Source: Planctomycetaceae bacterium
GTDB taxonomy: Bacteria > Planctomycetota > Phycisphaerae > Sedimentisphaerales > UBA12454
DNA length: 64,000 nt
Reading direction: 5' to 3'
Assembly (NCBI GenBank): GCA_021371795.1
Contig: JAJFVK010000003.1
Location: forward strand, 1-64,000
A program made the position numbers and the translations under genes. Below, one piece after another: positions 26,352 to 61,094 of the stretch. Under the pieces are notes generated by a model, which saw only the letters and a list, made by a program, of their open reading frames with translations, was not told where the DNA came from and ran no database searches. Position 1 is the first letter of the stretch, and each line of letters starts with the position of its first letter.

Positions 26352-26598
26352 AGCCAGTAAAATACCGGATTAACAGCCAAAAAGGAAGAGTTTTATTCAT
26401 GTGCTAATTAAACAGCGGTAATTAGACAATTAAGACAAATTAGCTTATGATTATCTATAACATCAAATCAGGTACTTTCCGAAATTATCATTCAGTTAAT
26501 TTGAGACGAAATAATCTATATAACAAATTTTGGATATGCATAGATGAGAGAATATTGATGTGTGGGAAACTCAATTATTAAAAAAAAGAAGAATCATA

Positions 26599-29181: not shown

Positions 29182-30894
29182 TCACGCTCCGGGCTCGGAT
29201 TGATTTATATTTTTGCACCATATTTGCCAGATTTTTCGGTATGCAAGTTCGAGCACTTGGGTAAATTTTTTTCTATCGCAAAGAATGCTCGCTGACATTC
29301 TCTGACGCATCGTCTGGCGAATTTTCGACAACGATTCCTGTTTTGCCGCCAATGCGCAGGCTTTATTAACATACTCATCGTGTTTTTGTGCGGCGAAAAA
29401 TGTCATATCCAATCGACTGAACAAACTCAACGAAACACGGCTGCTGTGGCAGTCGCCGACAAGCGAAATAACAGGCACGCCCATCCATAACGCTTCGCAT
29501 GTAGTCGTTGTGCCGTTGTACGGGAATGTGTCTAATCCGATATCTATCCTGTTATACAGTTCTAAATGCTCGGCAGGGGATTTGTGGCCGTGGATTTCAA
29601 TTCTGTTTTTCTGCACGCCGAGCTTTTCAAATATTTCAAAATAATATTCCTGCATCGAGGTGTGCTGGCCGCCGCGGATTTTTAAAATCAATCGCGAATT
29701 CTCGACACGCTTTAGTATCTGCGACCATAACGACATAACTTCCAAATTAATTTTCTGATTTATGTTAAATGAGCCAAATGTGGTAAAACCGTTTTTTACG
29801 CACGGGCATTCGGCAAGCGGCGGCGCGAAGTCCGGCGGTCTGTAACACAAAAAACCGGTCGGCAGACAAATCTGGCTTTCAGTGTAATATTTGTGATTGT
29901 CCGGCGGGTCGGCAAGTTCGTCTGTGATTCGATAATCCATCTGCGAAAGGCCTGTCGTGTCGGGATAGCCGAGCCAGGTAACCTGAATCGGCGCAGGCTT
30001 TCGTGTAAAGGCCGCGAGTCTGCCGCCCGCGGTGTGGCCGGCGAGGTCAACGAGAATGTCAATTTTATCTCTGGCAATTGTGTCAGCGGCTTGCTGGTCT
30101 GTCAGGCCGTGAATATCCTTAAAGTTATCGAATTGCGGACGCATACGTTTTGTAACTCTGTCGGTTTCTTTCGAGTTATTATAGCCGAAGATTTCAAACG
30201 CACTGCGGTTATGACTTTCGAGAACAGGCTCAAAAAAATACGCGACGGAATGCTGATTAAAATTCGGCGAGACGTAACCTATGCGTAGTTTTCTGTCCGG
30301 TTCGGGAGTATTGGTGTGTTTGAGCGGAACATCCGACGTGAAATTTTTGCCCCATTTGATGTGTTCGTGAAATAGCGTTTGCGGGCTTATATCCGGCTTA
30401 TAATGCAGTGAGTAGAGCAGTGTGTCGGCGGTTTCTGTGTCATCCTGCGCGATTTGGACGGCTTTTCGCAGCATTTCGATTCCCTCATTCGATTTGCCCA
30501 GCGAGATTAATTGGCCGCCGAGGATATTAAAAATTTTCGGGTCGCCGGGTTCGAGTTTTAATGCTTTTTCGGCATATTCAACGGCAGAGATGAAATTGCA
30601 TCTTTCCTCTTCGATTCGACTCAACTCATAATACGCAAAGGAGTATTGGCCGAGTTCGAGAATTTTTTTGTTCAAGTTTTCCGCTCTGTCCAACTGTCGA
30701 ATCTTGAACAGCAGGGTGGAAAAAATATAGAGCGATAAAGTTTTCGTGTTGGCATCCGGGATTGCGCAGACTTCTTCGACCGCGGTTTCGGTCAGCAGGT
30801 TTTCAGCTTTTTTGTTATCACCTGCGTTTACAGCGTTTTCCGCTTCGATTAAAAAATCGGGAATATTATCTGCCAAATTTTCGGCATTGTTCAT
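29182..30894 (-). CDS. TPR protein with GT41 (SPINDLY/OGT-type) glycosyltransferase domain
   Basis: This 570-residue protein has ~4 TPR units (residues ~40-170, for example AVEYAEKALKLEPGDPKIFN) and a GT41 O-GlcNAc-transferase-type catalytic region: RKLRIGYVSPNFNQHSVAYF, KIDILVDLAGHTAGGRLAAF, PAPIQVTWLGYPDTTGL, DYRITDELADPP, then LDTFPYNGTTTTCEALWMGV and PVISLVGDCHSSRVSLSLF. GT41 enzymes add a sugar (often GlcNAc) to Ser/Thr of proteins. It is the last gene of the methyltransferase/GT41/GT41 operon, with a 4-bp overlap. The likely target is flagellin, encoded just upstream of this operon; that is inference. Confidence 0.9.
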   Translation of the reverse strand: MNNAENLADNIPDFLIEAENAVNAGDNKKAENLLTETAVEEVCAIPDANTKTLSLYIFSTLLFKIRQLDRAENLNKKILELGQYSFAYYELSRIEEERCNFISAVEYAEKALKLEPGDPKIFNILGGQLISLGKSNEGIEMLRKAVQIAQDDTETADTLLYSLHYKPDISPQTLFHEHIKWGKNFTSDVPLKHTNTPEPDRKLRIGYVSPNFNQHSVAYFFEPVLESHNRSAFEIFGYNNSKETDRVTKRMRPQFDNFKDIHGLTDQQAADTIARDKIDILVDLAGHTAGGRLAAFTRKPAPIQVTWLGYPDTTGLSQMDYRITDELADPPDNHKYYTESQICLPTGFLCYRPPDFAPPLAECPCVKNGFTTFGSFNINQKINLEVMSLWSQILKRVENSRLILKIRGGQHTSMQEYYFEIFEKLGVQKNRIEIHGHKSPAEHLELYNRIDIGLDTFPYNGTTTTCEALWMGVPVISLVGDCHSSRVSLSLFSRLDMTFFAAQKHDEYVNKACALAAKQESLSKIRQTMRQRMSASILCDRKKFTQVLELAYRKIWQIWCKNINQSEPGA

Positions 30895-32687
30895 AATCGT
30901 TCGGCGACGCTTTGAGCGTTAACTGTTTTTTTATCGTTCTGCTTTTGGCACCATGTCTGCCACATCTGCCGATACGCGTTTTCCATTCTCGCGGCGAATA
31001 CGACTTTGTTGCAAAGCGCACTTGCCCGCAACCTGTCTCGCATTGTGTTTCTGATTTTGGCCAGCGAGTCCGGCTTCATTGCAAGCGCGACGGCTCTTGC
31101 GACGTACTGCTGCGGAGTCGGTGCGGCGAAAAATTCCATGCCGAGGTTTTTGAAAATGCTCAACCCTACTCTGGACATATGATTTTCGCCGACGAGCGAT
31201 ATCAGCGGTACGCCCATCAGCAGCGACTGGCAGGTGGTCGTCGTTCCGTTATACGGAAACGTATCGAGTGCAATATCTACCTTGTCATAGAGCATAAGGT
31301 CTGCCGGTGATTGCAGCCAACCTGAAATAGCTATGCGGTCTTTGGCGATGCCGGCCTGTTCAAATTGCTTCAAAAATATGTCGCGGATTTCATCGTCCTG
31401 ACCTGATTTGAATTTCAACAGAAGATTCGAATTCGGAACCTGTTTTAGAATTTCAGCCCATAGTCCTATAATAAGCGGATTAATCTTACTGCTATTGTTG
31501 AAGCAGCCGAAAGTGATGTGCTTTGCCTCTATAAACGGCGCAGGTGCAACTAGCGGCTGGATTCCGCAGGGACTGTAGCAGAGGAAAATACCGGGGAGGT
31601 AAAATAATTTTTCGGAATAGTATTGTTCGCAGCCGGGCGGGTCGGCGATTGCATCGGTGATTCTGTAATCTATCTGGCTCATACCTGTTGTGTCAGGATA
31701 GCCCAGCCATGTTGCCTGAATCGGAGCGGGCTTGTATGCCATCGCGTACAGGCCCGTGTTGCCGGAATGGCCCGCCAAATCGACGAGGATGTCAATGCCG
31801 TCGCTTTCAATCAGCTCTGCTTTGGCTTTGTCGTCCAGTGGGCGGACATTTCTGTACTGGTCGAATTTGCTTTTGAGTCTTTCAGTTGTTTCGTCATGGT
31901 GAAAGACATTGCCGTAACCGAAAATTTCAAACTTATCGCGATTGTGTGCTTCGAGCAGCGGCTCAAAAAAATATGTTACTGAATGATTGCGAAAGTCCGG
32001 CGAGATATAACCGATTTTGAGTCTGCGGTTCGGGTCTGGGATATTGCGGTGTTGTTTTTTTGCCAGACGCGGAGGCATATTTCTCGATGCCCATCTGACG
32101 ATATCGTTGAAAATTTCTGCACGCGGAAAATTTTGCAGATAATGGCTGTAAATAAAATAATTCGAATGTGCTATATCATGTTCCGGCCGCATTTTCATGA
32201 CTTTTCGCAAAAGTTCTATCGCTTTTTCGGTTTGGCCGAGGCTTATCAGGTTACCTGCGAGATTTCCCCACAGAAAAGGTTCGTTCGGGGACATTTCGAG
32301 GGCTGTGTTCAAATAATGAATGGCTTTGTTGAGGCGTCCGGTTTTTTTGAAAATATCTGCCAACTCATTATAAACCGAAGAATGGTTATTAAATTTCAAC
32401 AAATCTTCGAACATCTGTTCTGCACGGGCAATAATCTCGGCACTCTTCAGCAGCGAAGCGATTTTGAACATAGAAAAAACTTTTTCTGTGCCAATTAATC
32501 TTTCGAGTTCATTTTTGATGAACGTTTCGTCCAGAAGACGATTTGCCTTTTCCATATCGCCTGTTTCAATGGCATTTTCCGCGTCTTTGAGCCATTGCGG
32601 CATTAGTTTGGCCGCCCAGTCGTCGAACGACATTCCTTTGATTGGGTCGTTTTTTTTATTATTGCTGATTTTGAATTTTTGCTTCAT
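30891..32687 (-). CDS. TPR protein with GT41 (SPINDLY/OGT-type) glycosyltransferase domain, paralogue
   Basis: This 598-residue paralogue of the next gene has TPR units near residues ~80-185 (SVYNELADIFKKTGRLNKAI; NEPFLWGNLAGNLISLGQTE). The catalytic part shows RRLKIGYISPDFRNHSVTYF, GIDILVDLAGHSGNTGLYAM, PAPIQATWLGYPDTTGMSQI, DYRITDAIADPP, LDTFPYNGTTTTCQSLLMGV and ENHMSRVGLSIFKNLGMEFF. All core GT41 segments are intact. The two paralogues have diverged enough to suggest separate substrates or sugar sites. It overlaps both neighbours by 4 bp, so the three genes are translationally coupled. Confidence 0.9.
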   Translation of the reverse strand: MKQKFKISNNKKNDPIKGMSFDDWAAKLMPQWLKDAENAIETGDMEKANRLLDETFIKNELERLIGTEKVFSMFKIASLLKSAEIIARAEQMFEDLLKFNNHSSVYNELADIFKKTGRLNKAIHYLNTALEMSPNEPFLWGNLAGNLISLGQTEKAIELLRKVMKMRPEHDIAHSNYFIYSHYLQNFPRAEIFNDIVRWASRNMPPRLAKKQHRNIPDPNRRLKIGYISPDFRNHSVTYFFEPLLEAHNRDKFEIFGYGNVFHHDETTERLKSKFDQYRNVRPLDDKAKAELIESDGIDILVDLAGHSGNTGLYAMAYKPAPIQATWLGYPDTTGMSQIDYRITDAIADPPGCEQYYSEKLFYLPGIFLCYSPCGIQPLVAPAPFIEAKHITFGCFNNSSKINPLIIGLWAEILKQVPNSNLLLKFKSGQDDEIRDIFLKQFEQAGIAKDRIAISGWLQSPADLMLYDKVDIALDTFPYNGTTTTCQSLLMGVPLISLVGENHMSRVGLSIFKNLGMEFFAAPTPQQYVARAVALAMKPDSLAKIRNTMRDRLRASALCNKVVFAARMENAYRQMWQTWCQKQNDKKTVNAQSVAERL

Positions 32688-33484
32688 TTTTTCTTGTGTC
32701 CAAATATAAACATATCATGAACAAAACAGCCTTGGAAAGTTTCAACAATTTCAAGCTGCGCGAGGCTGAAAAGTTGTTTGATATTTTTTTCATCATAGAG
32801 GAATATGTGTTCCGGCGGCTTAAACTGCGGCCATTGAGCATTTTCGTTGCGATAACACGGCGTTTGAAACATAAAGAATCCGTTGTCGTCGAGCAGGTCA
32901 TATACTTTCTGCAAAGCTCTGACCGGCTGTTCAAAATGTTCGAGGACATCGAAGCCGGCGATTATGCCGAACTTGTTGATTGGGATGGTGATGTCTGGGA
33001 AAAGCCCGCTGACAACGCGGGGCAGTTTAAAATGCTCTCTGGCAAACTGACAGGTTTTTTCATCCGGTTCATTTCCGACAACGTTTTTCAGGCCTCGCTG
33101 CATACAGTAATGCAGAAAACCGCCGTGAGCGCAGCCGATTTCAAGCAGACGAGCAGGCACATCCTTATATTTTTGTATTATTTGAACCATCAGCTTAAAC
33201 CATATTGGAATGCGGTCTTTCAAATCATTATCTACCCGCTGTTCAATTGGCGGCAATTTTTTAATACCGGCCTGGTCGTGCCAATACGTTTGGAAACCAT
33301 AAAAATCTTTTAGCTGTTCATTGTTAAGTTGTTGTTTCAAAACAAAAGTATCGCAGTTTGCGCAGCGAAAATAAGCAGGATTGACGGAATCCTGAAGCGT
33401 TCCGCCGCCGCACCAGCATTTTTGAAGATTTTTGGCCGCTTCAACTGTCTGTGCTTTTTCCATAGCTTTTTCGAGAATCAACAT
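32684..33484 (-). CDS. Zinc-ribbon SAM-dependent methyltransferase
   Basis: This 266-residue protein has an N-terminal zinc-binding knot (CWCGG then CANC, residues ~23-45) and a class I SAM methyltransferase domain of the Methyltransf_23 type: motif I LLEIGCAHGGFLHYCMQRG, GFDVLEHFEQPVRAL, and GFFMFQTP. Proteins of this build methylate sugars in cell-surface or flagellar glycan synthesis. Here it leads an operon with two GT41 enzymes, so it may methylate the sugar added to flagellin. AAGGATAG precedes the ATG. A sigma-54 promoter at 33532-33548 places its transcript start about 37 nt upstream. Confidence 0.87.
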   Translation of the reverse strand: MLILEKAMEKAQTVEAAKNLQKCWCGGGTLQDSVNPAYFRCANCDTFVLKQQLNNEQLKDFYGFQTYWHDQAGIKKLPPIEQRVDNDLKDRIPIWFKLMVQIIQKYKDVPARLLEIGCAHGGFLHYCMQRGLKNVVGNEPDEKTCQFAREHFKLPRVVSGLFPDITIPINKFGIIAGFDVLEHFEQPVRALQKVYDLLDDNGFFMFQTPCYRNENAQWPQFKPPEHIFLYDEKNIKQLFSLAQLEIVETFQGCFVHDMFIFGHKKK

Positions 33485-33531
33485 AATTACTATCCTTAAC
33501 TATGTACAGAGACTATGCTCGCAGGACAGAG

Positions 33532-33548
33532 TGCAAGAAATGTGCCAG
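33532..33548 (-). promoter_or_regulatory. Sigma-54 promoter of the methyltransferase/GT41 operon
   Basis: On the minus strand: TGGCAC, spacer ATTTC, TTGCA. It matches the -24/-12 consensus (GG and GC separated correctly). The predicted start is near 33521, 37 nt before the ATG. Confidence 0.87.
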
Positions 33549-33757
33549 TAGGTGAAAAAGGCTTTTTTTGCGGAAAATCGGTAACAGGTAAGGGGGGATG
33601 TAGTGATATTAAACGTTTTCTCGAACCAGACAGGAAAATTATAGTTTTGAGTCTTTAATTTTGAGTGACGTACTAAAAATGGTGTCGGTTGTCAGATTAA
33701 GAAGCAGGTTTGGCAGTGTGGAGTCGGTTGTTAGTCTAACAGATTCGGTGTTTTGGG

Positions 33758-34117
33758 TTAGTTTGCGATGGCTTTCCAACTCTGATTCAATTCCTCTAAC
33801 AGTTTAATAACCTCTTCAAGTTTGGCGGTATTTCTTTGAATGTTGCCGTCGTGAATATTGCGAATCATAAATGTATATAAGGCTCTAAGGTTGTTCGCGA
33901 TTTCGCCGCCGGTTTCCATATCCAAAACGGTATTAAGCTCGTTAATAATGTCCTCTACCTTATTGAGATACTTGCTTTTTGTCTCTTGGTTGCCTGCCTG
34001 CATTTCGAATATGGCATATTTCAGGAACTTAATCGCGCCTTCGTAAAGCATCACTACAATACGACCCTGGCTTTGTGTCGTAATTGAGTTCTCCTGATAT
34101 GTTTCGATGCCCTTCAT
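33758..34117 (-). CDS. fliS: Flagellin export chaperone FliS
   Basis: This 119-residue all-helical protein fits FliS, which binds the C-terminal helices of flagellin and holds it unfolded until export. The N-terminus YQENSITTQSQGRIVVMLYE and the helix GAIKFLKYAIFEMQAGNQET are characteristic; length is typical (about 120-135). GGAGTG lies before the ATG. It follows fliC by 105 bp with a hairpin between, so it may be made at lower level than flagellin from a shared transcript. Confidence 0.93.
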   Translation of the reverse strand: MKGIETYQENSITTQSQGRIVVMLYEGAIKFLKYAIFEMQAGNQETKSKYLNKVEDIINELNTVLDMETGGEIANNLRALYTFMIRNIHDGNIQRNTAKLEEVIKLLEELNQSWKAIAN

Positions 34118-34167
34118 TATTCAGCACTCCGTTATTGCTTATTAAAATGTGTGATACCTTTAAATAT

Positions 34168-34196
34168 GGGGGATGGCTTTTTATTAACCATCCCCC
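34168..34196 (-). terminator. Hairpin between fliC and fliS
   Basis: GGGGGATGG (34168-34176) and CCATCCCCC (34188-34196) form a stable 9-bp stem with an 11-nt loop. There is no long T-run after it on the minus strand, so it may act as an attenuator or mRNA-stabilising 3' structure of fliC. Confidence 0.65.
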
Positions 34197-34222
34197 TGAA
34201 ATTCAATCAAATCTGCTCTTAA

Positions 34223-35527
34223 TTAGCTATTGAGCAGTGAAAGTGCCATTTGAGGCATTGAATTAGCCTGTGACAACATGGCGATGCCAGCTTGAGAAAG
34301 CACTTGTGTTCTGGTCAGCGTTGCCATTTCTGTCGCAACGTCAACGTCAGATATACGGCTTTCAGCAGACATCAAATTCTCTGCCTGAATATCAAGAATC
34401 GAAATCGTGCTTTCAAGACGGTTCATCTTGTAACCGAATGCTGCACGAGCCGCGTCTTTTACGGTAATCGCATTGCCAACCGAAGTCAAAGCTGACTGTG
34501 CGGCTGAAGCTGACAAAATGTTGATACCTGCACCAACTGCAACTGTGCCAAATGATGCAGACACATCTGAAGCTGTTGTAGCGTCTGAAGTAAGTACTAT
34601 AGCACCGGTTGTGGTGACGTCCGTATTTGCGTTTGTTTGTCCTGTGATGGCGACGGAGTCGGCTGAATCTTCATTCGAATCGAGCTTGAGGTGGTAAGTT
34701 CCGCCAGTGGTGTCGTAGGTTGCCATCTGATAGTTCAGAGTCTGGCCGTCTGTGCCGTTACCAAGGTTCTGGCTTACGAGGTTAATCTTATCGATAACCT
34801 CCTGCAGAGTGTAGTCTGTAGTACCGTTGCTGCATGAGAAATAAACATCAACGGTCGTTTCTGACACATCCGTGGCAGGAGTGGTGTCAGTAAATGTAAT
34901 GGAAATCTTTGCACCGTCAGAATAGGCATCAGTAGCAACAACACTTAAGTATGTAGTTGACAGAGCTGCGACGCCTGATGTTGCAGTGATTGTTGCGCCA
35001 ACATTGCCAACAGCAATATTAAGACCGGTATCGGTTGTCATATCCTGTCGTTCGATTGTAATAGTGTCGGCAGTACCAACGTGAATTTCGATATCTTCAG
35101 CGCTGTCAGTTGTAGTTAACATTCTGATACCGTTAAACGATGTTGCACCGGCGACTCTGTCAATTTCGTCGGCCATTTCAGAAAATTCTGCGTTCATAAT
35201 TGTTCTTTGTGCTGTCGAATACGAACCCGTAGCAGCCTGTTCAGCCAGCTCTTTCATACGGATAAGGTTCTCATCGATAACGCCCATAGCACCTTCCATC
35301 GTCTGTAACATACTAATACCGTCCTGTGCGTTACGTGCTCCCTGCTGAAGAACAGCAACGTCTGCACGAATCAATTCGCGAACGGCCAAACCTGCTGCAT
35401 CGTCCTTAGCACTATTTATGCGAAGGCCAGATGCGAGTCTTTCAACACTTGTTGACAAGCTGTCATAAGCTTTTCCCAAGTGTCTGGCAGCATTACTTGC
35501 CATAATGTTGTTTTTAATCGCTAACAT
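34223..35527 (-). CDS. fliC: Flagellin
   Basis: This 434-residue protein is the flagellar filament subunit. The conserved N-terminal coiled coil (NNIMASNAARHLGKAYDSLS; SGLRINSAKDDAAGLAVREL; ARNAQDGISMLQTMEGAM) and C-terminal helix (ESRISDVDVATEMATLTRTQ; VLSQAGIAMLSQANSMPQMA) are intact. The central ~200 residues are rich in Thr, Ser and Asp and contain a Cys (FSCSNGTTD), which is rare in flagellins. Such a variable, Ser/Thr-rich centre is a good candidate for O-glycosylation. The ribosome site AAGGAG is strong. No sigma-54 match was found upstream, in contrast to the other flagellar operons. A single flagellin gene is seen in the window. Confidence 0.95.
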   Translation of the reverse strand: MLAIKNNIMASNAARHLGKAYDSLSTSVERLASGLRINSAKDDAAGLAVRELIRADVAVLQQGARNAQDGISMLQTMEGAMGVIDENLIRMKELAEQAATGSYSTAQRTIMNAEFSEMADEIDRVAGATSFNGIRMLTTTDSAEDIEIHVGTADTITIERQDMTTDTGLNIAVGNVGATITATSGVAALSTTYLSVVATDAYSDGAKISITFTDTTPATDVSETTVDVYFSCSNGTTDYTLQEVIDKINLVSQNLGNGTDGQTLNYQMATYDTTGGTYHLKLDSNEDSADSVAITGQTNANTDVTTTGAIVLTSDATTASDVSASFGTVAVGAGINILSASAAQSALTSVGNAITVKDAARAAFGYKMNRLESTISILDIQAENLMSAESRISDVDVATEMATLTRTQVLSQAGIAMLSQANSMPQMALSLLNS

Positions 35528-36040
35528 GGTTTTGCTCCTTAAAAATAAACGTTTACTTTTCAGGCCCTGTCAAGCCTTATTTCCTTAATGCGCTACAAGC
35601 ACATCGCGGTAGTTATCTGATAAGTGCATTTTCGCTTACGAAATGAAAAACTTAAGGCCGGTTTTCAAGCTGGATAAGAAGAACAAGATAGGAGGGTAAA
35701 AAACGCGTCTTATAATACTGAAAATGCGGTTTTTACGGGGAGCAGGGAATAAAAAAAACTTATAAATTTTTATGGTCTTTTAATATTCCGCAAGAACATA
35801 CTGATAATGATGTTACGAGGATTGAAATGGCAGAGAAAAAAGGAAAATTTTTAAAATTTTTACTTATTTTAACAAATTTGTGGTCCGATAAACGGTTTTT
35901 ATTGAAGATTGTAGATTGAAGAATGAAGATTGGATAATTTGCCGTGGGCTTTTCGTAAATCTTCAATCTTCCCCCTCTGATTTTTGTTTTCAAGGAACAA
36001 AAATCCTTAATAACTCGGGGGTCTGCGACATTTTTCAATC
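35528..36040. other. Promoter region of fliC and spacer
   Basis: There is no gene here. The fliC leader on the minus strand contains AAGGAG at the start codon and TTGACA about 50 nt upstream, with no good -10; a loose sigma-28-like pattern (TAAG, then CAGATAA) lies near 35615-35645. A GCGGTTTTT-type motif (AAAATGCGGTTTTT, 35721-35734) lies 195 nt upstream. Beyond it 'attgaagattgtagattgaag' repeats face an inverted copy near 35955-35970. Confidence 0.45.
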
Positions 36041-38020
36041 TTAAATTCGTGCGTCGCACCAATTTTTCCACATTTGTCTGTAAGCGGCTTCGACTTCCTG
36101 TGCCATACGTTTGGCATCAAAAAGCGGACTGTTTTTCATCTTTTGTCGCAATGAAGTTCGCAATTCTGCCAGTTTTGCGGGATTTTGGGCAAGTTCAACG
36201 GCTTTAGCGATGTATTCCTCTCTTGTCGGCACGGCATATTCGCCCATATCGAGTCTGTTCAATATTGTCAGGCCGACCCTTCCGTTCATATGCGAACCGT
36301 ACTTTGAAATGACAGGACAACCCATCCACATGGCATCACCGGTGGTTGTGCCGCCGTTTTCGGGGAAAGTATCGAATGTAATGTCAACATCGCTGTATTG
36401 TTTAATGTACTCATTGTACAATTTTCGCCCGCTAAACCTGATACGTTGGCGAGAAACACCGAAATCTTCAAATTTTTTAAAATAAGATTCCTGGATGGCT
36501 TTGTCATCGCCGGCGGTAAAACCGATAAAAAGTTTTGAGTTCGGAACTGATTTTACAATTTGTGCCCACGTTTTAAACAACAGGTCATTAAATCTCATAT
36601 TATTGGAAAACACTCCAAATGTAATATAACCGTTTTTAACGCTCGGCGGCGGCAGGATTTCATATTCTGTGCGGTGGGTATAAAAACAGACACCGCCCGG
36701 CAGATAAGCGAATTTTTCAGTGTAATATTTCTGCGTTTCCGGCGGATTTAGCAGTTCATCGGTAATAATATAATCCATCTGCGACATTCCTGTTGTGTCG
36801 AAATAACCGAGATATGTAACCTGAACAGGAGCTGGTTTGCGTGCCATCATAATCAGCCTATGGCCGGCGGTGTGGCCGGCAAGATCAACCAAAATGTCAA
36901 TTTTGTCATCTCTAATAAGCCGGGCAAGCGAATCGTCATTAACTTTAAAAACATCTCTATAACAATCAAACTTTTCCCTCAATTTTACAGTCAAATCGTC
37001 CGGCTGTTCCACGTTTCCATAGCCGAATATCTGCATAATATCGCGGTTGTGTGCATTGATAAGCACTTCAAATATCGCGCCAACCGGATGCCTTTTAAAA
37101 TCAGGTGAAAGGTAACCAATACGGAGTTTGCGATTCGGGTCTGGATCGTTTGTGTGGTTCATATTGGCCATAGACGGCGGCGTATGTTTCGCACCCCATT
37201 GCTTGTGCGCATCTGAAATAGTCTGTAATTCCGCATCCGGCAGCAGATGCAGATGGTAAAGATATGTCGAATGTGTCTTGTCGTCAATTTGAGCCTTGTT
37301 GATGGCAGCCTGCAAAAGCTGTGAGCCTTCCTGAATTTCGCCGGATTTCATCAGAGCCGTAGCAAGACCGCTCTTGAGCTTTTCGTTATTTGGCTCTATC
37401 TGCAGACCCTTGCGAAAATGCGAAGCAGCCTGCGACATACGATCGGTTTTTACGCAAATCCAGCCGAGCCTGTCGTAAGTATGAACGTGAGGTATAATCT
37501 TTACGATTTTTTCATAATTTTTTTCGGCCTTTTCAAATTCTCTTATACCTTCAAAAAATACGCCGAGTTCAAATACGTAATCCAGTTTTGTCGGATTTTC
37601 TTTTATTAATTCCTCCAGAACTTCAGCGGCCTTTTCGCTATGTCCCTGTTTACGCATAGTATCTAATACCGCGCGAATGCCGGCCGCGTCTTTTTGGCGT
37701 TTGAGAGCTTTGCACATAATCGTCGCCGCTTCATCTGTCCGGTTGAGTTTTTTCAGCACTTTGGCCATACTGTCAATTATATTTGGAGCGTCAGGATTGT
37801 AGTCATACGCTTTTTGCAGCCATTTGAGAGCTTCTTCGTATTCGCATTTGGCGCGATATACATCGCCTATGCCGCAGTATGCTACGAAGCGGTTGTGTTC
37901 GATATTTTTCTTGAATATTTCAATTGCCTGGTCGTGGCAGCCTTTGTTTATGGCTGAAATGGCGTCGAGCAGAAATTGCGGCGGGCCGGCTTTTGGTGTT
38001 TTGGCAGTATTATTTGGCAT
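36041..38020 (-). CDS. TPR protein with GT41-type glycosyltransferase domain (third copy)
   Basis: This ~659-residue protein has at least five TPR units in the first half (residues ~15-260; for example AVLKKLNRTDEAATIMCKAL, KAEKNYEKIVKIIPHVHTYD). The GT41 domain has NRKLRIGYLSPDFKRHPVGA, KIDILVDLAGHTAGHRLIMM, PAPVQVTYLGYFDTTGMSQM, DYIITDELLNPP, DVDITFDTFPENGGTTTGDA and MGCPVISKYGSHMNGRVGLT. It differs from the other two in FPENG (FPYNG there) and SKYGSHMNGR (SLVG there). ATG 38020 is chosen because AAAGGA lies 8 nt upstream; the longer frame adds 34 residues with no family match. It is transcribed away from the TPR-GT9 gene across a 75-bp gap. Confidence 0.88.
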   Translation of the reverse strand: MPNNTAKTPKAGPPQFLLDAISAINKGCHDQAIEIFKKNIEHNRFVAYCGIGDVYRAKCEYEEALKWLQKAYDYNPDAPNIIDSMAKVLKKLNRTDEAATIMCKALKRQKDAAGIRAVLDTMRKQGHSEKAAEVLEELIKENPTKLDYVFELGVFFEGIREFEKAEKNYEKIVKIIPHVHTYDRLGWICVKTDRMSQAASHFRKGLQIEPNNEKLKSGLATALMKSGEIQEGSQLLQAAINKAQIDDKTHSTYLYHLHLLPDAELQTISDAHKQWGAKHTPPSMANMNHTNDPDPNRKLRIGYLSPDFKRHPVGAIFEVLINAHNRDIMQIFGYGNVEQPDDLTVKLREKFDCYRDVFKVNDDSLARLIRDDKIDILVDLAGHTAGHRLIMMARKPAPVQVTYLGYFDTTGMSQMDYIITDELLNPPETQKYYTEKFAYLPGGVCFYTHRTEYEILPPPSVKNGYITFGVFSNNMRFNDLLFKTWAQIVKSVPNSKLFIGFTAGDDKAIQESYFKKFEDFGVSRQRIRFSGRKLYNEYIKQYSDVDITFDTFPENGGTTTGDAMWMGCPVISKYGSHMNGRVGLTILNRLDMGEYAVPTREEYIAKAVELAQNPAKLAELRTSLRQKMKNSPLFDAKRMAQEVEAAYRQMWKNWCDARI

Positions 38021-38060
38021 ATTCAATCCTTTGATATTTTGAGTACAATGGTATAAAGAT

Positions 38061-38080
38061 AAACTTGAAAATTCAAGTTT
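38061..38080. promoter_or_regulatory. Palindrome between divergent glycosyltransferase genes
   Basis: AAACTTGAA, AA, TTCAAGTTT: a perfect 9-bp inverted repeat 40 nt before the third GT41 gene and 16 nt before the TPR-GT9 gene. It could be an operator or a small stem-loop; no factor can be named. Confidence 0.4.
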
Positions 38081-38095
38081 TTTACAAATTAAACA

Positions 38096-39751
38096 TTGAG
38101 AGGCAATAAAAAGATTATACAATTAAAGAATAATCGGAATTTGACGGGGCAATACTTGTCTGTAAATGGTAACAATATCGGCGATGACAAAGAGCTTGAC
38201 CGTGCGTTTGCGTTATTCAAGGACGGAAACATTCGGCAGGCGGGGGAAATTTGTCGGGGCATTCTTGAAAAGACTCCCGCGCAAATCGACGCACTGCAAT
38301 TACTCGGAGTAATTTACGGCAAAGAGGCCAAATACGCTGAATCGGCGGAATTGCTCGAAAAGGTAATCGAACTGCGGCCTGATTTGCCGAAAGTTTATAA
38401 CAATCTCGGCTTTGCGCTGATGAAGCTTGGAAATCTTGAAAAGGCCGAAGCGGCTTTCGAAAAAGCAGTGTCTTTGCAGACCGATTTCAAACAGGCATAC
38501 AACAACCTAGGGCTGGTTTCAAAAAAGCTCGGAAATTTTGCACAGGCAGAAATTGCGTTTGATAAAACTCTCCAAATCGACCCGAACTACGCAGAGGTGA
38601 TAGCAAATCTCGGTATGACTTTTCTTGCACAGGGAAAATGCGAACAGGCGGCCGAATATCTTCGCAAAGCGATTAAGCTAATGCCGAAATTCGCGGAGTT
38701 TTATAATAATCTCGGCACGGCTGTAATGGAGCTTGAGCAGTTCGACGAGGCGCTGGCGGCGTTTGGAAAGGCGATTGAAATTGAGCCGCAGCTTGCGCAG
38801 CCGCATCATAATCGTGCGCTTGTAATGCTGCTGCTCGGACAATTTGAGCAGGGCTGGAAAGAATATGAATGGCGGTGGATGAACAGCGGATTTTCTACTC
38901 CGCATCGGCCGTTTATGCAGAAGCGATGGGATGGTTCTGTTGAAGGCGTTGGAAAACTGCTTGTCTGGGGTGAGCAGGGCATCGGCGACGAAGTGCAGTT
39001 CTCTTCATTCATCCCGCTTATAACAGCAAAAGGAATAAATGTAATCGTAGAATGCGATAAGCGGCTTGTGTCTATACTGCAAAGAAGTTTGCCGAATGTT
39101 GCTGTCTTTGCGCGAAGTGATGTGCCCGCTAAAGAGCTTGACGACGATTCGATTACACATCAGATACCGGTCTGTTCACTGCCGCAGGTTTTAGGTTGGC
39201 CGGTGAATTTACAGCCGCATATTCTGCCGGACGAAAATTTGCGCAAACAATTACGCGACAAATATAAGGCCGGCAAAGATATTTTGCTTGCAGGTATCAG
39301 TTGGCGGAGCGGCAACAGTCAGGAAGGTGCAAAACGCTCAATCGATTTGGAATTGTGGGAGCCGATTTTTAAAATCGCAGGCGTGAAATTTGTTAGTCTG
39401 CAATATGGTCAGTGTCAAAAACAAATTCAGCAGGCAAATCAGAAATTCGGAATTGAAATAATAAAAGATGAAAACGTAAATCCATTGACAGACCTCGAAG
39501 GTTTTTGCGCACAGACCGCGGCGATGGATATTGTAATTTCAGTTGATAATTCGACGGTGCATTTCGCCGGTGTTATGGGGACGCGAGTCTGGACAATGCT
39601 TGCGACAGTGCCGGACTGGAGATGGGGGTTACAAGGCGAAACGACTTGTTGGTATCCGTCGATGAAATTGTTCAGGCAGCATAAGCGGGGCGATTGGCGG
39701 CCGGTGATTGCGAAAGTCGCAACAGAGTTGAAAAACAAAAATCAAAAATAA
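38096..39751 (+). CDS. TPR protein with GT9/heptosyltransferase-like domain
   Basis: This 551-residue protein has ~7 TPR units in residues ~30-260 (for example AYNNLGLVSKKLGNFAQAEI, EFYNNLGTAVMELEQFDEAL) followed by a GT-B-type domain resembling heptosyltransferase-family proteins: KLLVWGEQGIGDEVQFSSF, LLAGISWRSGNSQEGAKRSI, IVISVDNSTVHFAGVMGTRV and WRWGLQGETTCWYPSMKLF. It probably transfers a sugar to a protein or peptide. There is no ATG; the frame opens with TTG (38096), and an ATT after GAGAGG (38098-38103) is another possible start. It lies divergent from the third GT41 gene. Its 3' side converges on the GT2 gene. Confidence 0.82.
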   Translation: MRGNKKIIQLKNNRNLTGQYLSVNGNNIGDDKELDRAFALFKDGNIRQAGEICRGILEKTPAQIDALQLLGVIYGKEAKYAESAELLEKVIELRPDLPKVYNNLGFALMKLGNLEKAEAAFEKAVSLQTDFKQAYNNLGLVSKKLGNFAQAEIAFDKTLQIDPNYAEVIANLGMTFLAQGKCEQAAEYLRKAIKLMPKFAEFYNNLGTAVMELEQFDEALAAFGKAIEIEPQLAQPHHNRALVMLLLGQFEQGWKEYEWRWMNSGFSTPHRPFMQKRWDGSVEGVGKLLVWGEQGIGDEVQFSSFIPLITAKGINVIVECDKRLVSILQRSLPNVAVFARSDVPAKELDDDSITHQIPVCSLPQVLGWPVNLQPHILPDENLRKQLRDKYKAGKDILLAGISWRSGNSQEGAKRSIDLELWEPIFKIAGVKFVSLQYGQCQKQIQQANQKFGIEIIKDENVNPLTDLEGFCAQTAAMDIVISVDNSTVHFAGVMGTRVWTMLATVPDWRWGLQGETTCWYPSMKLFRQHKRGDWRPVIAKVATELKNKNQK

Positions 39752-39848
39752 AATATCAAAATTATTGAACGGCCTCGGCCGGACTGTTTAAATAAAAATC
39801 CATTCCGATTTATCGGGATTCCGCAATTTTGATTTTTGCTTTTTGATA
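39752..39848. terminator. Inverted AT-rich sequence between convergent genes
   Basis: Left arm 'aaaatatcaaaattattg' near 39750-39766 and right arm 'caattttgatttttgcttttt' region near 39824-39848 are near-reverse complements. Inside lie CGGCC-TC-GGCCG (about 39762-39773) and CCGAT-TT-ATCGG (39805-39816). It may terminate both convergent genes. Confidence 0.4.
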
Positions 39849-40640
39849 TTATCTTAAATGTTGTGGGAGTTCGATGCCGTAATTTCCATACATTCTTTGC
39901 AGCACTCTTTTTTGCAGATACTGAATTTTCGGCGACGACCATTCATTGTATCGTTTGTAAAGTATTTCAAGATTTATTAATCTTCTTTGCTTGTTCGAGC
40001 CGGTTTGAGAAATGTCATCGATTTTTTCGTGGAACTCCGATGTTATTTTCGCGATGTGCGCGAAATCAAACCAATGTGAAAGGCGAATCCACAAGTCGTG
40101 GTCTTCGTGCGTCGCCAGCGATTCGTCGAAATAACCGGTTTTGTCGAAACATGCCTTTTCGTGCATTATAGACTGAATGGCGATGTAGCTTGCGACCAGA
40201 AAATAATCACGATTGAAATCCTGCGATTGAAAAATTTCTTTGGAGATAGTAATGTATTTGTCGCCTTGCTTTTCCTGCAGGATGCGATATGAGTCGGTAT
40301 ATGCGACTTTGTATTCGGATGTTTGCAGAAAATTTGTCAGCGTCTCAATGTGTTCGGGATAAATTATATCATCATCATCAAGGTATGTAATGTATTTTCC
40401 CTCTGTGCAGGAAATAGCGGTATTGCGGGCAGCAGCGGGACCCTTGCTGTTTTGACAAACGTATTTTATCTCAAGTTTTTTTGACGCGGTGTCGATTATG
40501 TGTCGAACTTCACAGCCCCCATCGTTGACCACAATAACTTCCAAATCTTTGTACGTCTGTGTGGCGATACTATTTAACGCCCGTGCCAGAGTGTCCGGCC
40601 GGTTGTGAGTCGGAATAATTATTGAAACTGCTTTTGTCAT
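39849..40640 (-). CDS. Glycosyltransferase family 2
   Basis: This 263-residue GT2-type inverting transferase has the nucleotide-sugar fold: VSIIIPTHNRPDTLARALNS, LEVIVVNDGG, GPAAARNTAIS, and the DxD metal motif in ITYLDDDDIIYPEHIETL. The acceptor-side region includes THEDHDLWIRLSHW. It overlaps the upstream GT4 gene by 4 bp and belongs to the fliK/GT4/GT2 operon. It may extend the sugar attached by the GT41 enzymes; this is inference from context. Confidence 0.88.
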   Translation of the reverse strand: MTKAVSIIIPTHNRPDTLARALNSIATQTYKDLEVIVVNDGGCEVRHIIDTASKKLEIKYVCQNSKGPAAARNTAISCTEGKYITYLDDDDIIYPEHIETLTNFLQTSEYKVAYTDSYRILQEKQGDKYITISKEIFQSQDFNRDYFLVASYIAIQSIMHEKACFDKTGYFDESLATHEDHDLWIRLSHWFDFAHIAKITSEFHEKIDDISQTGSNKQRRLINLEILYKRYNEWSSPKIQYLQKRVLQRMYGNYGIELPQHLR

Positions 40641-42283
40641 TCAGATATTTTAATGAGGTTGTACTTGAGCATCCACAAAATATAATACATCGCAATCGCA
40701 TCAGAGATATCAGCGTTTTCTTTTAAAACTTTAATAAATTGCGAAACGGCTATAGTCCGGCTGTAAATTATCTTAAGGGCTGTTATAACAAGATTTGGAA
40801 TAATAACGCTTGCACTGACGTCAGAATACGCAAGAGGTGGTTTGCCTGAAATAAGTATTTCACGGCCGTATATACTTATGGAAATTTTACAGTCTTCCGA
40901 AACCATCTCTGACGGATAATGCGAAAATACCTTCCAGTAATCAAGTTCAAACGGATTTTCTCTCTTGTCAATTTCGCCTTTATAACTTTTTGCTTCCTTG
41001 GACAACTCATCCCATAAACAGCAGTATTGGCGGATAACGTGCGGCCATAAATATTGCCGCAGCGCCTTTGCCCTTGCTCTTTTGCCCATCGCATCACATT
41101 TTTCAGGATTGTCGAGCAGGTTCTGCAGCGTCTCGAATATTTTTTCCTGGTCAACGGCGACAGACTGGCTAAGCATCAGTTGCAGCGTGGCGAAATTCAT
41201 AATTTCTGAAACGCCGTGGAGATGGCCTGTTATGTTTGCCCAATACGTCGGGATTTTTATGCCTGTCAGGTTCTGGTCAACTATTTCCGAATAGCCATCG
41301 AAATCTGAAACGACGACGGCACATTCGTGAGCCATCGCCTCGACTACGGAAATGCCGAAAGTCTCCTGGAAATTATCGACCGGAGAAGCATAAACATTAG
41401 CCGCTCTGTAAAGATGAGTTTTTAAATTGTTCTCAAAATTAAGAAACAATTTCGTATTGGCCTCAAGCTCGTATTCGGCTAAAAGACTATTAAGGAATTG
41501 CTGTGCCTGTTTGTCGCATCCGCCGGCAATCATAAGATTAATTTTTTTGTCCGCGTTCTTTTTTATGAGTCGTCTGACAGTATTCAAAAACGGAATTATG
41601 TCCATTTTGTTGTCGGTTTCGATTCTGCCGAGAATGAGAATCGCGAACGCGTCTTCGTCAATGCCGAGCAGTTTTCTGCTTTCGCTGCGTTTTGGGATGT
41701 CTCTGAATTTATCGTCAATGCCAAGAGGAATAATATCCAGCCTGCCGTTGTATTTCACATTTTTTTGTTCGAAATTATTTTCCGCAGCCATAAACAATTT
41801 CTGCATAACTTTTTTGCCGCAGTTACTTGTGCAGACAATCGAATCGAACGGCATCACAGGTGCAGCGCAGACTTTGAGCGCGTGATACGTTGCTTCTTTT
41901 GCGTTTAATGAGTGCGTAACGCCTGTTATGGGGAAGAGACTTTTAGCGTAAAGGTTGCGGATGTGAGCAAAGCCGGGATAAAAAAAGCCCCAGCCGCCAA
42001 GATGAAAAACATCGTATTTTTTTTTCTCTAATGAATTTTTTAACGATGAGATATGGTAAATTTTGATTCTGTCTTTGTTATTCTGACTTATGTATTCATC
42101 TTTAAAAATTCTATCCTGCGTCAATCGGCAATTAGCGTACGTAGGGCAAAAGATGTGATATTCGTTAAAGTCGGAAAATTTGAACAGGGCATTAAAGAAT
42201 TCATAATTCGCCACGAGCCTGCCGATTTTGAAAGAAGACTCTGACGTTTCTATAAACGGCTGAACTGTACCAAAAACTTTCAT
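40637..42283 (-). CDS. Glycosyltransferase family 4-type protein
   Basis: This ~548-residue protein has a GT4-like C-terminal fold. It shows AILILGRIETDNKMDIIPFL (start of the donor-binding domain), INLMIAGGCDKQAQQFLNS, YRAANVYASPVDNFQETFGI, then SVVEAMAHECAVVVSDFDGY (the E-x7-E motif of GT4 enzymes) and SEIVDQNLTGIKIP. A C-terminal extension of ~120 residues (SCKIS... helix-rich, to the end) is not part of the standard fold. ATG 42283 is chosen over a TTG 24 nt upstream. It begins 26 nt after the fliK stop, so it is probably cotranscribed with it. Confidence 0.85.
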   Translation of the reverse strand: MKVFGTVQPFIETSESSFKIGRLVANYEFFNALFKFSDFNEYHIFCPTYANCRLTQDRIFKDEYISQNNKDRIKIYHISSLKNSLEKKKYDVFHLGGWGFFYPGFAHIRNLYAKSLFPITGVTHSLNAKEATYHALKVCAAPVMPFDSIVCTSNCGKKVMQKLFMAAENNFEQKNVKYNGRLDIIPLGIDDKFRDIPKRSESRKLLGIDEDAFAILILGRIETDNKMDIIPFLNTVRRLIKKNADKKINLMIAGGCDKQAQQFLNSLLAEYELEANTKLFLNFENNLKTHLYRAANVYASPVDNFQETFGISVVEAMAHECAVVVSDFDGYSEIVDQNLTGIKIPTYWANITGHLHGVSEIMNFATLQLMLSQSVAVDQEKIFETLQNLLDNPEKCDAMGKRARAKALRQYLWPHVIRQYCCLWDELSKEAKSYKGEIDKRENPFELDYWKVFSHYPSEMVSEDCKISISIYGREILISGKPPLAYSDVSASVIIPNLVITALKIIYSRTIAVSQFIKVLKENADISDAIAMYYILWMLKYNLIKISE

Positions 42284-42309
42284 TGCCGTATTATAATCCT
42301 TTTTCAACG

Positions 42310-43956
42310 CTATACCAGCATATTTACCGAATCTTCACTATAGTGCATATCCGGTGTGGAATACGGGTTATAACTTTCTGTGCCTTTGGACCCCCACCGA
42401 CTGTAGATGTTCCCGCCGGTGTTGTTTTGCTGGTTGGATGAATTTTGCTGCCAAGACCAGTTGTTTTGTCCCGCTGATGAATGATCTTTCATATCCTGAT
42501 GCTCCTGCTGGTTAGCCAAAACAACTTCTATTTTCTTTATGTCAACTCCGCCATCCTTGAGATTCTGAATTATTTCAGGAAGCGATTGCTGAATTTCATA
42601 TCTTGTGTGCGGTTTATCGACTGAAAGTACGCCGGTAAGACCTGTGCTGTCTTCTGTAAATTTTATCTCGACTTTGCCAAGCTCCGGAGGATTGAGCTGA
42701 ATAACAATTTCCCTGTTATCCGCGCTTAATGAAGATTGGATATTGTACTGAATCTGGCCGGCAACGCTTGTCGTCGAATCGGCGTTGTTTAGTTTGTGAG
42801 TGTTTTCAGCGACCGAAGATGTTTTGAAAATTTGTGAATCATCTGTAACCAAAGATTGCAGGCTTGTCAGTATTGAGTCGCTGTTGTTTGAATCCGATGT
42901 CTTGGCCTCAATAGTGCTGTCCTGTATATCCGGCGACTGCTGCGAGGAGTTTTTATCCGGCTCGACGGATTTTACAGAGAAATCGTCTGGGCTGAATTTG
43001 TCATCGCTGACTGAATCGGAAGATATGGAATTCGTATTATTGTTTTTCGCACTGTCCGGAATCGTGTTTTGAATCTCGCTTAAAATGTCCTTCAGTGTAG
43101 TATCTGATTCGACATCAATATTAATATCGCTATCACTATCGTCCTTTGAATCTATTTCACCGCTGAAAGCCTGCTGATTTTGAACGGTAGCTGCAACAAC
43201 CGGAATTTCAAGTTCCGGCATTTCCACATTTGTCAAATCCTGACTGCCTGCCAGTTCTTCGATGGTAAGCTGTGGTTTTGTGTCTTCGCTTTCTTCAGTT
43301 TGAGTTTGGTCGGAAATATCGGTCAGATTTTCAACTGCGGTTGATGTTAGTTCTATTTCGTTTTTATTTTCGCTTTCGCAGACTGCGGTTTCATCAGTTA
43401 CCGCTGTTTGCAGATTGTCTGAAATTATTTCGCTAATCGACTGTTCAGTTGCTTGCGTTTGCTCATCAGTCGGAGCAGCAATTTCCTGAATGTTCGTTTT
43501 TGAAACTGTTTGGGAAACGGCCGGGGTTTGAACAATATCGGCTGTTATTCGGACAGAATCGTCTGTCGTTGCGAGTTGTTCTTCCGGAACTACATCTGTG
43601 TTGGTATCGATATTGATATTTTGGGCAACGGGAATGGCCAGCAATTCCTGTGGTACAGCAGAATTTTCTGTGTTTTCTGTATTCTCGTCTTTTTCCTGCT
43701 GATTATCATCCGCGTCATTTTTTTTGGATGTTTTTTTCGGCTCTGTTTTCTTCGCCAAGGTTGCACTGAAATCATTAGCCGATTCATCGACCGATTTTTT
43801 CTGTGCCAAAGCTTGAGTGCTGCCGTCCAGTTCAGATGCGAAAGGTGATGATTTGTCTTCGGCCTGGCCGGCGGTTTGCGTTTTTTTGGAAGCTGCAGAC
43901 TGCTTGGCCGCTGTGCCGGTGTTCGCGAACAAATTGTTAGCTAAAGATATAGTCAT
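42310..43956 (-). CDS. fliK: Flagellar hook-length control protein FliK
   Basis: This ~548-residue protein has a long, acidic, low-complexity N-terminal part (Asp, Glu, Ser, Thr, Gln-rich, residues ~15-400). The Flg_hook/FliK C-terminal domain follows: REIVIQLNPPELGKVEIKF, TGLTGVLSVDKPHTRYEIQQ, SLPEIIQNLKDGGVDIKKIE and VVLANQQ. FliK measures hook length and triggers the export switch through FlhB. The ATG at 43956 lies only 3 nt after the predicted sigma-54 transcript start (43959). A TTG 18 nt upstream would fall in the promoter itself. It is followed in the same direction by two glycosyltransferase genes. Confidence 0.85.
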   Translation of the reverse strand: MTISLANNLFANTGTAAKQSAASKKTQTAGQAEDKSSPFASELDGSTQALAQKKSVDESANDFSATLAKKTEPKKTSKKNDADDNQQEKDENTENTENSAVPQELLAIPVAQNINIDTNTDVVPEEQLATTDDSVRITADIVQTPAVSQTVSKTNIQEIAAPTDEQTQATEQSISEIISDNLQTAVTDETAVCESENKNEIELTSTAVENLTDISDQTQTEESEDTKPQLTIEELAGSQDLTNVEMPELEIPVVAATVQNQQAFSGEIDSKDDSDSDINIDVESDTTLKDILSEIQNTIPDSAKNNNTNSISSDSVSDDKFSPDDFSVKSVEPDKNSSQQSPDIQDSTIEAKTSDSNNSDSILTSLQSLVTDDSQIFKTSSVAENTHKLNNADSTTSVAGQIQYNIQSSLSADNREIVIQLNPPELGKVEIKFTEDSTGLTGVLSVDKPHTRYEIQQSLPEIIQNLKDGGVDIKKIEVVLANQQEHQDMKDHSSAGQNNWSWQQNSSNQQNNTGGNIYSRWGSKGTESYNPYSTPDMHYSEDSVNMLV

Positions 43957-43969
43957 ACACCCGATATTT

Positions 43970-43985
43970 AGCAATTAATGTGCCA
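43970..43985 (-). promoter_or_regulatory. Sigma-54 promoter of fliK
   Basis: Minus strand: TGGCAC (43985-43980), ATTAA, TTGCT (43974-43970). The match to the -24/-12 consensus is complete. The predicted +1 is about 43959, so the mRNA would be nearly leaderless. Confidence 0.88.
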
Positions 43986-44272: not shown

Positions 44273-44288
44273 TGGCACAATTATTGCT
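44273..44288 (+). promoter_or_regulatory. Sigma-54 promoter of the flgB operon
   Basis: TGGCAC (44273-44278), AATTA, TTGCT (44284-44288). The predicted +1 is near 44299, 38 nt before the flgB ATG. Confidence 0.88.
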
Positions 44289-61078: not shown

Positions 61079-61094
61079 CGCAAAATGCGTGCCA
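61079..61094 (-). promoter_or_regulatory. Sigma-54 promoter of the TPR/FliT/fliD operon
   Basis: Minus strand: TGGCAC (61094-61089), GCATT, TTGCG (61083-61079). The GG and GC doublets have the right spacing. The predicted +1 is near 61068. A GCGGTTTTT motif lies just upstream at 61107-61115. Confidence 0.85.

Follow-up and report, generated by a model that had tools for sequence, protein, structure and literature searches.

Listeria GmaR is a flagellin glycosylator that bears tetratricopeptide repeats (TPRs), has a GT2-type catalytic domain, and also acts as an anti-repressor. FlmG glycosylates flagellin in the cytoplasm of Caulobacter; its TPR half binds flagellin and its GT-B half works with pseudaminic acid (PMC7591256). 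SPINDLY (SPY), a GT41 enzyme, is an O-fucosyltransferase in which Lys689 reads the guanine, Tyr744 reads the fucose, and Lys665 is essential; the OGT equivalents are Leu866 for Lys689, Cys917 for Tyr744, and Arg904 for Ala731 (PMC10027727, PMC9715652). SPINDLY-like genes are reported to be widespread in bacteria, with only a handful characterised so far (PMC10027727). Of the bacterial GT41s, XcOGT and TtOGT are the best studied, yet a clear native O-GlcNAc target has been found for neither (PMC9715652). This report concerns a cluster of glycosyltransferase genes that surrounds the gene for flagellin in an uncultured planctomycete, within a window of 64,000 nucleotides (contig JAJFVK010000003.1, positions 1 to 64,000, forward strand). 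The cluster probably encodes a sigma-54-controlled system of flagellin O-glycosylation, in which two GT41 enzymes (GT41a and GT41b) would transfer a GDP-sugar, most likely L-fucose, followed by methylation and by extension through GT2, GT4, and FlmG-like transferases.

The source genome is a 2.85 Mb assembly in 28 contigs, ~98% complete. Planctomycetes bacterium GWF2_42_9 and GWF2_41_51 belong to the same genus, and genomes close to it carry the names Sedimentisphaerales or Phycisphaerae. Within 29182-42307, three GT41 genes, a methyltransferase gene, GT2 and GT4 genes, and a gene whose product joins TPRs to a transferase-like C-terminus are interspersed with fliS, fliC, and fliK. An original prediction, made from the sequence alone, had placed six glycosyltransferase genes and one methyltransferase around fliC and fliS, and all seven were recovered where it had put them. 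In each of the three GT41 proteins, PF13844 matched two stretches, with E 4e-53 to 8e-57. The features of the locus are as follows, with residues in SPY numbering.

29182..30894, minus strand: GT41a, TPR and GT41 catalytic domain; PF13844 E 7.9e-57; best PDB match SPINDLY, E 3.6e-104; K665/K689/Y744 present
30891..32687, minus strand: GT41b, TPR and GT41; PF13844; SPINDLY-like residues kept; same-genus orthologues immediately after fliS
32684..33484, minus strand: S-adenosylmethionine-dependent methyltransferase (Methyltransf_23); PF13489 E 2.1e-21; heads the operon with GT41b and GT41a; start/stop overlap with GT41b
33533..33547, minus strand: sigma-54 -24/-12 site TGGCACATTTCTTGC; exact match; upstream of methyltransferase-GT41b-GT41a, 49 bases before the ATG
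33758..34117, minus strand: fliS, flagellin export chaperone; PF02561 E 5.1e-38; TIGR00208
34223..35527, minus strand: fliC, flagellin, the presumed acceptor; PF00669, PF00700
36041..38020, minus strand (open reading frame to 38122; likely ATG ~38020): GT41c, long TPR and GT41 fold with K665R, K689G, and Y744E; PF13844; AlphaFold2 model; kept in four same-genus orthologues
38141..39751, plus strand: TPR protein with a glycosyltransferase-like C-terminus of ~290 aa, FlmG-like architecture; TPR families; start uncertain (TTG 38096 or 38141)
39849..40640, minus strand: GT2 glycosyltransferase; PF00535 E 9.8e-30; genus-conserved
40637..42307, minus strand: GT4 glycosyltransferase with C-terminal extension; PF00534 E 4.6e-22; genus-conserved
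42310..43974, minus strand: fliK, hook-length control, leading the fliK-GT4-GT2 operon; PF02120
43971..43985, minus strand: sigma-54 site TGGCACATTAATTGC; exact match; upstream of fliK-GT4-GT2
44273..44287, plus strand: sigma-54 site TGGCACAATTATTGC; exact match; upstream of flgB-flgC-fliE-fliF
61080-61094, minus strand: fourth exact sigma-54 site, immediately downstream of flgL and directed at the gene below 61080

The linkage of GT41 to flagellin exceeds local chance. An even sample of 248 Phycisphaerae genomes was surveyed, and linkage was defined as a GT41 gene within ~10 kb of a flagellin gene. The GT41 clade of the window was flagellin-linked in 12 of 14 genomes, compared with none of the 26 genomes of the class sample with other GT41s (Fisher p 1.6e-8), seven of which were without flagellin. 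As far as their contigs allowed, three other genomes of the genus shared the order fliK-GT4-GT2, divergent TPR-transferase, GT41c, fliC, fliS, and GT41b, and a GT41 gene behind or beside fliC-fliS was found order-wide. A tree of 90 catalytic domains placed all planctomycete flagellin-linked GT41s in one 44-row clade (support 100/99), which indicates that the association is old in the group and was later expanded by duplication. Genome-wide co-occurrence of GT41 and flagellin (13/13 vs 36/47, p 0.10) was suggestive only.

A flagellar gene lay within 8 kb at 13 of the 80 best GT41 loci, including a few from Pseudomonadota, Thermodesulfobacteriota, and Myxococcota. Flagellin-near GT41 genes were seen in Gammaproteobacteria, Mariprofundus, Hydrogenophilales, and deltaproteobacterial lineages (L075, L110, L127, L085, L086, L095), and those outside the planctomycetes are possibly independent recruitments. 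On one contig (L042, G050:C26:1-20000, and L065), approximately ten GT41 genes or domains stand in tandem immediately behind fliC-fliS, among them double-GT41 proteins of 1000-1300 aa. This is an extreme local expansion of candidate flagellin glycosyltransferases. At two further loci (L057:6048-10490 and L058:1951-5583), a single protein after fliS carries two GT41 catalytic domains. The second of these domains and the GT41b of the window genus are sisters, so the genus seems to retain one half of a former pair.

The sigma-54 pattern TGGCAC-N5-TTGC was scanned for exact matches over the whole window, with 100 shuffles as control. Four matches were found against 0.18 expected, and none of the shuffles reached four. 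That two glycosyltransferase operons start at sigma-54 sites, as had been proposed, was borne out by the perfect matches at 33533-33547 and 43971-43985. A perfect site shortly after fliS was present at seven loci (the window, L031, L033/L056, L034, L035, L057, and L058) and precedes a GT41 gene or operon wherever this was assembled; the L031 contig stops soon after. The GT41 operon and fliK-GT4-GT2 are most likely under sigma-54 control together with the genes for the hook and the basal body.

Relatives carry some GT41s of this clade as fusion proteins: with a Methyltransf_23-type domain in L035, with an FkbM methyltransferase in L038, and with a sulfotransferase in L036 and L063. Other GT41s adjoin hexapeptide-transferase and GFO/IDH/MocA genes. 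These lineage-varying fusions support a decorated sugar and a variable coat, for which they are the best evidence. A profile built from the single sequence of the window methyltransferase failed to pick up the methyltransferase portions of the GT41 fusions. It thus seems that separate recruitment events brought in different methyltransferases. The GT41-sulfotransferase fusions (L036:5886-9488 and L063:7401-10502) lie beside flagellin, and a sulfated sugar on these flagella is possible. With conserved linkage, shared sigma-54 control, and methyl- and sulfotransferase fusions combined, the predicted flagellin O-glycosylation is well supported, as is the stepwise tailoring by a methyltransferase that the original prediction had suggested.

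Among solved structures, GT41a and GT41b best matched Arabidopsis SPINDLY (E about 1e-103), compared with 5e-53 and 3e-68 for human OGT. A residue table showed that both retain the GDP-fucose contacts K665, K689, Y744, H495, S496, and V497 (the last three forming a His-Ser-Val motif). The SPINDLY-like clan is marked by Lys689, Tyr744, a small or non-Arg residue at 731 (PMC10027727), and the catalytic Lys665; GT41a and GT41b have K665, K689, L731, and Y744, with Leu rather than Ala at 731. At the positions marking the OGT/SEC clan (Leu866, Arg904, and Cys917) they have Lys, Leu, and Tyr. The Met at the Lys665 position of TtOGT was considered as a natural loss and rejected, structure 5djs being an engineered K341M mutant. 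The genome encodes gmd (539 bits, cut-off 415) and, directly after it, a GDP-L-fucose synthase-like gene, the best NCBIfam match of which was GDPFucSynFcl (286 bits, under the strict cut-off). The best guess for the donor of GT41a and GT41b is GDP-fucose.

Several observations weigh against flagellin fucosylation. The K689/Y744 state is the commonest among the bacterial GT41s sampled (78 of ~118 not flagellin-linked), so Lys/Lys/Tyr is a clan signature, and in bacteria it may reflect descent more than a specificity for fucose. The loop that stacks on guanine (SPY 721-728) is unconserved. Among GT41-bearing genomes of the genus, gmd was not found in G001 and G005, both of which are incomplete, and the co-occurrence of GT41 with gmd was weak (11/13 vs 25/47, p 0.056). 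The flagellin centre is Ser/Thr-rich as had been described (28% Ser+Thr), but this is uninformative and was rejected as evidence, since GT41-less relatives are equally rich (22-32%).

Equivalence of the three GT41s is not supported. GT41c has Arg665, Gly689, Gln731, Glu744, and Gly747 and so lacks the residues that mark the SPINDLY-like clan. The combination R/G/E at 665, 689, and 744 occurs in all four same-genus GT41c orthologues (54-58% identity) and is absent from the rest of the 158 extracted domains. An AlphaFold2 model (mean predicted local distance difference test score 86.5) has a complete TPR and GT41 fold, nearest to SPINDLY. GT41c thus appears constrained, yet not as a standard SPINDLY enzyme, and the loss of the catalytic and donor-binding residues of GT41a and GT41b makes it likely that it is a transferase for a different donor or has a non-catalytic role (pseudoenzyme or binding partner).

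A fourth GT41 of the genome (L043, G000:C27:1946-4066) is located upstream of V-ATPase subunit genes, has K665/R689/F744, and carries an additional C-terminus of ~250 aa without a Pfam match. Its partner in the tree is the second GT41 at the fliC locus of G005, where the same V-ATPase block follows, which indicates either that the locus was split in the window lineage or that it was joined in that of G005. Elsewhere in the window, 26560-29058 encodes a hybrid histidine kinase, by reading with CBS-like repeats and PAS and receiver domains, which is convergent with the GT41a operon.

From the genes present, their conserved linkage, the promoter sites, the residue signatures, and the GDP-fucose genes observed, we infer the acceptor, the identity and linkage of the sugar, and the order of the steps as follows. 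The TPR superhelices of GT41a and GT41b would hold unfolded flagellin, and possibly other filament or hook proteins, in the cytoplasm, and their SPINDLY-type domains would move a GDP-linked sugar, most likely L-fucose, onto Ser/Thr before export via FliS and the flagellar export gate. The operon methyltransferase would then cap the sugar with a methyl group, while GT2, GT4, and the FlmG-like TPR-transferase may lengthen the glycan or act on other sites or flagellar parts. GT41c, with the fold retained and the donor site altered, would serve as an other-donor transferase or as a non-catalytic binding partner.

Other explanations were weighed against this scheme. That the GT41s are classical O-GlcNAc transferases using UDP-GlcNAc on flagellin would fit their family, their OGT-like TPR-GT41 architecture, and the significant match to OGT, but is improbable because SPINDLY-type Lys and Tyr replace the OGT donor residues L866 and C917 in GT41a and GT41b and Leu stands at the R904 position (PMC10027727). 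The main targets might instead be other proteins (the FliD cap, the hook, or FlgK/FlgL), or the enzymes might regulate flagellar gene expression in the style of GmaR. The paralogues do differ in TPR length, GT4 and GT2 lie in the fliK operon, and fliD directly adjoins GT41 in L063; in most relatives, however, GT41 immediately follows fliC-fliS rather than fliD or flgKL, and this explanation is considered unlikely. In the window, fliD, flgL, and flgK are located at 57-64 kb. The glycosyltransferases could also make a cell-surface polysaccharide, the flagellar neighbourhood being accidental. GT2 and GT4 families are frequent in polysaccharide loci, but the conserved gene order, the shared sigma-54 sites, and the linkage of 12/14 vs 0/26 make this hardly credible, and no flippase, polymerase, or ligase was among the locus genes read.

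A modification by a nonulosonic acid, either pseudaminic or legionaminic, of the kind seen in Caulobacter or Campylobacter, with the TPR protein at 38141-39751 as main transferase and the GT41s as accessories, would draw on the FlmG-described architecture and size of that protein. Its homologues are fliC-linked in the genus, in G058, G044, and L062, and also in G006, which is without GT41. The protein had been called GT9-like; a TPR protein with a transferase-like part is present, but the GT9 match of its C-terminus was weak and sub-threshold (PF01075 E 0.065), whereas the TPR part is clear. No sequence match to the C-terminus was found among solved structures, a fold search of the protein gave TPR-dominated matches, and the C-terminus may belong to GT9 or to another GT-B family. 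NeuB was not found in the ~98% complete genome, the best PF03102 match (46 bits) being a DAHP-synthase-like gene and the others weak. MptE-like/Maf domains (PF01973) had no genome match in a search whose matched control genomes were all archaeal, so that its sensitivity for bacteria is unproven. The NeuB/Maf route was rejected on these grounds, and a nonulosonic acid is regarded as very unlikely.

Flagellin O-glycosylation by SPINDLY-type GT41s therefore remains the preferred reading, and the locus suggests that the flagella of these planctomycetes bear fucose, probably methylated. A bolder proposal, tenable but somewhat short of probable, is that the Phycisphaerae GT41 clade is a dedicated flagellin O-fucosylation machinery, placed after fliC-fliS under sigma-54 and locally expanded, with fused methyl- or sulfotransferases that write varied fucose coats and with the genus-specific GT41c turned into a scaffold or other-donor transferase. 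No report of such a system was found in open-licence literature on flagellin with SPINDLY, GT41, or O-fucose. Through their conserved linkage to flagellin, bacterial relatives of SPINDLY would gain a specific candidate acceptor and donor and a regulatory circuit. If the scheme is true, O-fucose with methyl or sulfo tailoring joins the known flagellin modifications, and the origin of the eukaryotic nucleocytoplasmic O-fucosyltransferase might be revealed.

The system is a variety of cytoplasmic flagellin O-glycosylation, set apart by SPINDLY-type GT41s that in relatives carry fused tailoring domains. Listeria GmaR resembles it as a TPR-bearing flagellin glycosylator and differs by its GT2-type domain; the original prediction had cited GmaR as a GT41 precedent, a role it does not support. 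FlmG is a precedent that supports TPR-guided cytoplasmic glycosylation of flagellin (PMC7591256) and, by its published description, appears to be like the 38141-39751 protein in two-part build and size; it differs in its use of pseudaminic acid and its genetic tie to NeuB/Flm enzymes, the window genome being without NeuB. Human OGT, XcOGT, and TtOGT share the GT41 fold and TPR architecture with the window GT41s, whereas the donor residues L866/R904/C917 differ. Arabidopsis SPINDLY shares with GT41a and GT41b the TPR and GT41 build and the conserved Lys665, Lys689, and Tyr744, but GT41a and GT41b are bacterial, have far fewer TPRs, are flagellin-adjacent under sigma-54, and are fused to modifiers in relatives; the acceptors of SPINDLY are nuclear proteins, whereas that of GT41a and GT41b is presumed to be flagellin.

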